Source: Candidatus Caribbeanibacter nitroreducens
GTDB taxonomy: Bacteria; Gemmatimonadota; Gemmatimonadetes; Palauibacterales; Palauibacteraceae
NCBI GenBank assembly: GCA_947581645.1
Contig: CANPVF010000128.1
Coordinates: 1 to 49,304, forward strand
Direction: 5' to 3'
Length of the DNA stretch: 49,304 bases
A model generated the notes under the pieces. That model was not told the origin of the DNA, made no database searches, and was given only the letters and a program-made list of their open reading frames with translations. Of this stretch, positions 10,505-11,801 are shown piece after piece. How positions within the stretch are numbered: the stretch's first letter is position 1; every line of letters begins with the position of its first letter. A program made the translations under genes and the position numbers.

Positions 10505-10578
10505 GGGCCCGTAGCTCAGCTGGTCAGAGCAGCCGACTCATAATCGGCCGGTCCCAGGTTCGAGTCCTGGCGGGCCCA
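10505..10578 (+). tRNA. tRNA with CAT anticodon, probably tRNA-Ile2 (lysidine-type); elongator tRNA-Met not excluded
   Basis: Hand-folded cloverleaf: acceptor GGGCCCG/CGGGCCC, anticodon arm GCCGA-CTCATAA-TCGGC, T arm CCAGG-TTCGAGT-CCTGG, discriminator A, CCA not encoded. Confidence 0.93.
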
Positions 10579-10601
10579 CTCTCCCTCCCGTTTCGCTCCC
10601 G

Positions 10602-11645
10602 CTACTGCTGCCCGGCCTCCACCCGGATCGCCGGGCCGTCCCCGCGCTCCACCAGGCGGCCCACGCGGGCGGCGGCGTAGCCTCCGGCGCTCCACCGCCG
10701 CACCACCTCGTCGGCCTCACCCGGCGGCACGGCCGCCAGCAGGCCGCCGGAGGTCTGGGCGTCGCAGAGCAGGACCCTCCGATTCTCGGATACCTCCGGA
10801 CCCCAGTCCAGGTGCTGCTCCACCGCCTCCCGGTTCCGGCGCGTACCGCCCGGAACGTGTCCCGCCGCCGCCAGCCGGTCGGCGCCGGGGATCAGCCGCG
10901 GCGCGTTCGCGGAGACGCGGGCGCCGACGCTGCCGGCGCGGCACAGCTCCCACAGGTGGCCCAGGAGGCCGAAGCCCGTGACGTCGGTGGCGGCGTGGAC
11001 CTCGACGTCCGCCAGGGCCGCCGTCGCCTCGCGGTTGAGCTGACGCATGGAGTCCACGGCGGCCCGGATCTCCTCCGCCCGGGCCTCCTGCGCCTTGATG
11101 GCCGTCGTGATGACGCCGGTCCCCAGCCCCTTCCCCAGGACCAGCGCGTCGCCCGGCTTCCCGCCGCGCTTCCGGTACAGGCGGTCCGGGTCGCCGAGGC
11201 CGATGGCCACCAGCCCGAACTTGGGCTCCCGGTCGTCCACCGAGTGTCCGCCGGCGATGACGATGCCCGCCTCGCGGCAGACGTCGCTGGCCCCGCGGTA
11301 GATGGCTTCCACCACCTCGTCGGGGAACTCCCCCGCCGGGATGGCCAGGACCGCCAGCGCGAAGGCCGGCGTCACGTTCATGGCGTACAGGTCGCTCAGC
11401 GAGTTCGCCGCCGCCACGGCGCCGAACTGTTCCGGGTCGTCCACCAGCGGCGTGAAGAAGTCCAGCGTGGCGGCCACGGCCTGCCCGTCGTCGAGACGGT
11501 ACACGGCGGCGTCGTCGGGCTCGTCCAGCCCGATGAGCAGCCTCTCGTCCGGGAGGCGCGGCAGTGCGTCCAGTACGTGCTCCAGGTCCTCCGGACCCAG
11601 TTTGCACGCTCAACCGGCGCCGTGGGAGTACTCCGTCAGCCTCAT
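10602..11645 (-). CDS. selD: Selenide, water dikinase with in-frame UGA (selenocysteine, codon 12 at 11610-11612)
   Basis: Manual translation from ATG 11645 (preceded by GGAGGTGAGAC): MRLTEYSHGAG(U)ACKLGPEDLEHVL...DDAAVYRLDDG..., continuous in frame with the track ORF 10602-11504; aligns with E. coli SelD YSHGAGCGCKI. Confidence 0.93.
11577..11607 (-). promoter_or_regulatory. Candidate bacterial SECIS hairpin just 3' of the selD UGA
   Basis: RNA: GUGC-AAA-CUGGGUCC-GGA-GGACCUGG-A-GCAC; 4-bp lower stem, 3:1 internal loop, 8-bp upper stem with 2 G-U pairs; apical loop begins with G, 17 nt after the UGA. Confidence 0.78.
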
Positions 11646-11801
11646 GTCTCACCTCCTCGTCGCTGTCCGGGGCGGATCCCGGAGCGGGCTCTCGCGTCGA
11701 CCGGCCGCAAGCTATGATTGCTCCCGGGCCCGGCCAACCCGTCGGGTCGGTCGGCGGTTCCCGGCAAGCAGGCGCTCACCCCGTCCAGCACCCGAGACTC
11801 C

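Follow-up and report, generated by a model that had tools for sequence, protein, structure and literature searches.

The selD locus and its reading frame

The analysed stretch of DNA, here called the window (49,304 nucleotides), carries on its minus strand a gene whose ATG (11645-11643) opens a frame of 348 codons that ends with the stop at 10604-10602 (Table 1). Codon 12 of this frame (11612-11610) is TGA; with this codon read as selenocysteine (Sec), the frame reads MRLTEYSHGAGUACKLGPEDL... and is open through to the stop. A second in-frame TGA is located two codons ahead of the ATG, so that ahead of codon 12 no ATG other than that at 11645 can serve as the start. The mechanical ORF list contains a shorter version, 10602-11504, with a GTG start and 300 aa (the 'MYRLDDGQ' form), in agreement with the first-pass annotation, which had described the called ORF as a truncated SelD. 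Its further claim, that the frame runs upstream through the TGA to an ATG with a ribosome site, agreed with our reading of the sequence. As the standard call drops 47 residues, the catalytic site among them, the annotation of selD is corrected here. A standard ORF caller does report the GTG at 11504 as the start, however, it is highly improbable that the truncated protein is the real product, as it would be devoid of the catalytic residue and of 47 N-terminal residues which align to the solved SelD 3u0o, whereas the ATG at 11645 is preceded by a strong ribosome site, and relatives conserve the residues that the shorter call leaves out.

Coding signal was found on either side of the selD TGA. 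Only two other TGAs in the window have same-frame coding signal around them, and both are ordinary gene boundaries. A tRNA with a CAT anticodon lies on the plus strand at 10505-10579, convergent to selD, 22 bases past its stop and between selD and secD. Gene order around selD was of little help, as few relatives share its neighbours within the flanks that were compared.

Table 1. Coordinates of the features at the selD locus (window positions), in the rest of the assembly and in two relatives
Feature	Position	Strand	Basis or remark
selD CDS (selenide, water dikinase)	10602..11645	-	347 residues including predicted Sec12, plus stop; sequence read, TIGR00476, 3u0o
In-frame UGA at catalytic position, SHGAG-U-ACK	11610..11612	-	sequence, 44 relatives, 3u0o alignment
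Ribosome-binding site GGAGGTGAG before ATG at 11645	11648..11656	-	read in sequence
Predicted bacterial SECIS upper hairpin, 8-bp stem, GGA apical loop (11592-11590)	11582..11600	-	fold and model test
selA, own assembly	C162:14867-16231		495.7 bits (cut-off 267.9)
selB, own assembly	C59:4152-6038		340.1 bits (cut-off 242.25)
tRNA-Sec, own assembly	C59:13113-13205		79.1 bits (gathering score 47)
CMD/AhpD-like gene, in-frame TGA, DCFY-U (CxxU)	G000:C84:6357-6593 (L164)		second selenoprotein candidate
Peroxiredoxin-like gene, cut by contig end, in-frame TGA, W-U-PYC (UxxC)	G000:C5:11-244 (L165)		third selenoprotein candidate
NADH dehydrogenase-like/SelD fusions with Cys	L147:1202-3535; L148:84-2309		two relatives

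Family identity and conservation of the UGA

The full frame matched the NCBIfam SelD model TIGR00476 with 370.7 bits (cut-off 125) over profile positions 1-309 of 311, i.e., at full length, and aligned to PDB 3u0o, a SelD, over residues 1-339 (261 bits). In this alignment the TGA falls under the first Cys of the motif YSHGAGCGCK, which, together with the codons of the orthologues, bears out the earlier claim that the UGA occupies exactly the catalytic Cys/Sec residue. The comparison covered 60 genomes, i.e., the window's own and 59 relatives that belong to the same family, order or class. Of these relatives, 44 (45 of 60 including the own genome) have a SelD frame that contains a single TGA, located at the same residue, at identities down to about 44%. 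The orthologue alignment proposed in the first-pass annotation as a check for Cys or Sec returned only TGA (45), TGC (64) or TGT (16) among the 125 homologues with a readable site; 80 named SelD loci had been collected by patterns containing the Cys form of the site, and Sec forms are therefore under-sampled among these.

Because the TGA sits on the one Cys/Sec residue of SelD, is flanked by coding signal on both sides and is conserved in the relatives at this frequency, its occurrence is not due to chance, and its retention in 44 related genomes also argues against a sequencing error. The window does belong to a draft of 199 contigs, in which an error of sequencing or assembly could in principle give rise to such a codon, as could a nonsense mutation if the gene were decaying. 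However, neither can explain a TGA that is shared by three quarters of the genomes at a site where all homologues have only TGA, TGC or TGT. In addition, the frames with the TGA are otherwise stop-free, and the remainder of selD is intact and scores well over the TIGR00476 cut-off, so that we consider an error or gene decay extremely unlikely. The gene is almost certainly selD, encoding a selenophosphate synthetase which is itself a selenoprotein, with the UGA decoded as Sec.

Sec-containing SelD proteins are already established (PMC1794560, PMC4561486, PMC13188914), and according to the literature they and one other family are the most widespread selenoproteins in bacteria. With the bacterial SelD-Sec (TIGR00476; PMC1794560, PMC4561486), the gene shares the family, the catalytic Sec, the UGA with a downstream bacterial SECIS (bSECIS) and the co-occurrence with selA, selB and tRNA-Sec. 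Nothing essential differs; the host lineage, apparently Gemmatimonadota, is little mentioned in the cited selenoproteome papers. The Sec-type selD described here is a further member of a long-known kind, well supported but ordinary. Judged by title and abstract, a literature search on selenocysteine or selenoproteins in Gemmatimonadota/Gemmatimonadetes gave no paper treating the subject. Cys-type SelD is the same enzyme, in which, as exemplified by the catalytic Cys in the sequence of PDB 3u0o, recoding is unnecessary. Two relatives have the SelD domain in frames of 741 and 777 aa, behind an N-terminal oxidoreductase-like domain and with a CGGCAAK motif that contains Cys and no UGA. Such NADH dehydrogenase-like SelD fusions are a known class (PMC4561486). 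Both relatives lacked a separate UGA-type SelD match, and one of them (G033) had no selA over the cut-off.

A predicted SECIS hairpin and its shifting position

A SECIS element at selD was absent from the first-pass annotation, yet is present as a predicted upper hairpin that begins 9 nt downstream of the UGA and has a UGA-to-loop distance of 17 nt. The 52 nt around the UGA folded with -26.1 kcal/mol (z -3.45), and only one out of 200 dinucleotide shuffles was equally stable. The bSECIS model (PMC13188914) sets a G within the first two loop bases, a loop of 3-9 nt, a stem of 4-16 bp, a distance of 16-37 nt from the UGA and an energy of at most -7.5 kcal/mol; the selD hairpin, with its GGA loop, 8 bp, 17 nt and -9.7 kcal/mol, satisfies this model. 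In a simple contiguous-stem version, the model accepted 73% of the 45 UGA-type SelD genes, but only 12.5% of the 80 Cys-type genes. Compared to synonymous recodings, the mean fold z was -1.49 for the UGA-type and -0.21 for the Cys-type genes; as the sequences compared are related to one another, the p-value of this difference is not to be read at face value. The fold of the own selD was modestly better than its recodings (z only -1.67). For several close relatives the recoding z was near zero, and their contiguous-stem energies of -7.1 kcal/mol fell just short of the -7.5 limit; hairpins of the most distant members of the class (families f4 and f9) were poor or marginal under this scoring. Within one genus group a compensated stem change was found, from CGGCCCGGA...TCTGGGCCG to CGGCTCAGA...TCTGAGCCG in L118, in which both encoded residues change as well.

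The UGA-to-loop distance differed between groups, as compared between loci L133-L137 and L098-L132. In the own genome, and in a large part of the family and order to which it belongs, this distance was 17 nt. It rose to 20 nt in g6, the largest of the genus groups, and to 32-33 nt in f3, f5 and f6, which are other families of the class and in which the stem is formed by a different stretch, e.g., TGACGCAGGTCCTGCGTCA. Thus, the UGA and the flanking protein are fixed in place while the position of the hairpin varies among families, and the SelD family set provides a usable natural series for SECIS shifts inside one conserved gene.

Selenocysteine machinery and further selenoprotein candidates

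The assembly that holds the window comprises 2.96 Mb in 199 contigs and is 96% complete. From the window alone it had been proposed that the lineage possesses selA, selB and tRNA-Sec elsewhere, and all three were found in the same assembly with scores over the curated cut-offs (Table 1). The identities of SelA and SelB were confirmed by an NCBIfam search, and ARAGORN assigned the tRNA the anticodon TCA (UCA). In a draft of this kind the genes could be contamination, for which the listed estimate is 2%. Among the 45 genomes with a UGA-type SelD, selA was found in 41; the completeness of the other four is 81-88%. Two nearly complete genomes (G049 and G057) have neither SelD nor selA. Two others (G051 and G054) have a Cys-type SelD and yet keep selA, so that Cys at this site does not imply that the trait has been lost. 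In a further genome, a partial selA frame (G008:C332:3100-4233) is interrupted by a single TGA, which probably stems from a frameshift or from the end of the contig.

Very probably, the host lineage decodes UGA as Sec, and given this, other short or split genes of the lineage deserve re-examination. A genome-wide reassignment of UGA to Trp, Gly or Cys would look alike locally, as it would also place an in-frame UGA inside a conserved gene. However, only three coding-flanked TGAs were found in 85 kb, two of which are ordinary gene ends, the internal UGAs examined sit at redox-active Cys/Sec positions, and the genome has selA, selB and tRNA-Sec. Such a reassignment therefore has hardly any probability compared to decoding as Sec.

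The computational observations comprise selD with its conserved UGA and its hairpin, the genes of the Sec machinery and the other UGA-containing genes, and for actual Sec insertion and enzyme activity we draw on established knowledge. Translation of selD would start at 11645, and at codon 12 SelB with bound Sec-tRNA-Sec would decode the UGA as Sec under the direction of the SECIS hairpin. Sec12 is predicted to take the catalytic role held by Cys in other SelD proteins. The enzyme would make selenophosphate out of selenide and ATP, and SelA would use this for more Sec-tRNA-Sec, which may serve SelD itself and other selenoproteins, with the CMD/AhpD-like and peroxiredoxin-like proteins as candidates.

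These two candidates emerged from family searches for other selenoproteins of the genome (Table 1). The CMD/AhpD-like gene has a strong SECIS-type hairpin of 9 bp located 17 nt downstream of the UGA (-13.5 kcal/mol), and the peroxiredoxin-like gene one of 8 bp (-8.0 kcal/mol), also of SECIS type; the loop is GGC in both hairpins and thereby similar to GGA in selD. SelW-like (Rdx) genes occurred in 20 of the 41 genomes searched, each with a single in-frame TGA; reading through three of them (L154, L155, L156) placed this codon at the U position of CxxU. The family search found no SelW-like gene in the window's own genome. Selenouridine synthase (TIGR03167) gave no match in the own genome and none over the cut-off in the 60 genomes. 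Formate dehydrogenase was not found either, as a PF00384 search of the assembly gave only two molybdopterin oxidoreductases; these were rejected as formate dehydrogenase and read as an ActB-like subunit of alternative complex III and as NuoG. According to a 2006 study, Sec-decoding organisms without FdhA all have a Sec-containing SelD, and the own genome, with its UGA-type SelD and no formate dehydrogenase found, fits this rule.

Downstream of selA on C162 lies what reads as the start of a cytochrome oxidase gene, which, together with the ActB-like subunit, suggests that the host respires aerobically. We slightly favour the view that an aerobic-looking class, apparently of the Gemmatimonadota, keeps the Sec trait by means of SelD and small redox selenoproteins (CMD/AhpD-like, peroxiredoxin-like and SelW-like), having neither formate dehydrogenase nor selenouridine synthase, and that the SECIS of SelD has moved (17, 20 and 32-33 nt) with the UGA fixed.

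The placement of the class was approached by a quick SelD tree in which the Sec/Cys column was masked. The window's own order did not stand beside the Gemmatimonadota records in this tree, the deep forks of which are weakly supported. Records named Gemmatimonadota are interspersed with other families of the class, one of which (G051) nests among Gemmatimonadales, and this suggests that the class of the host lies in Gemmatimonadota.
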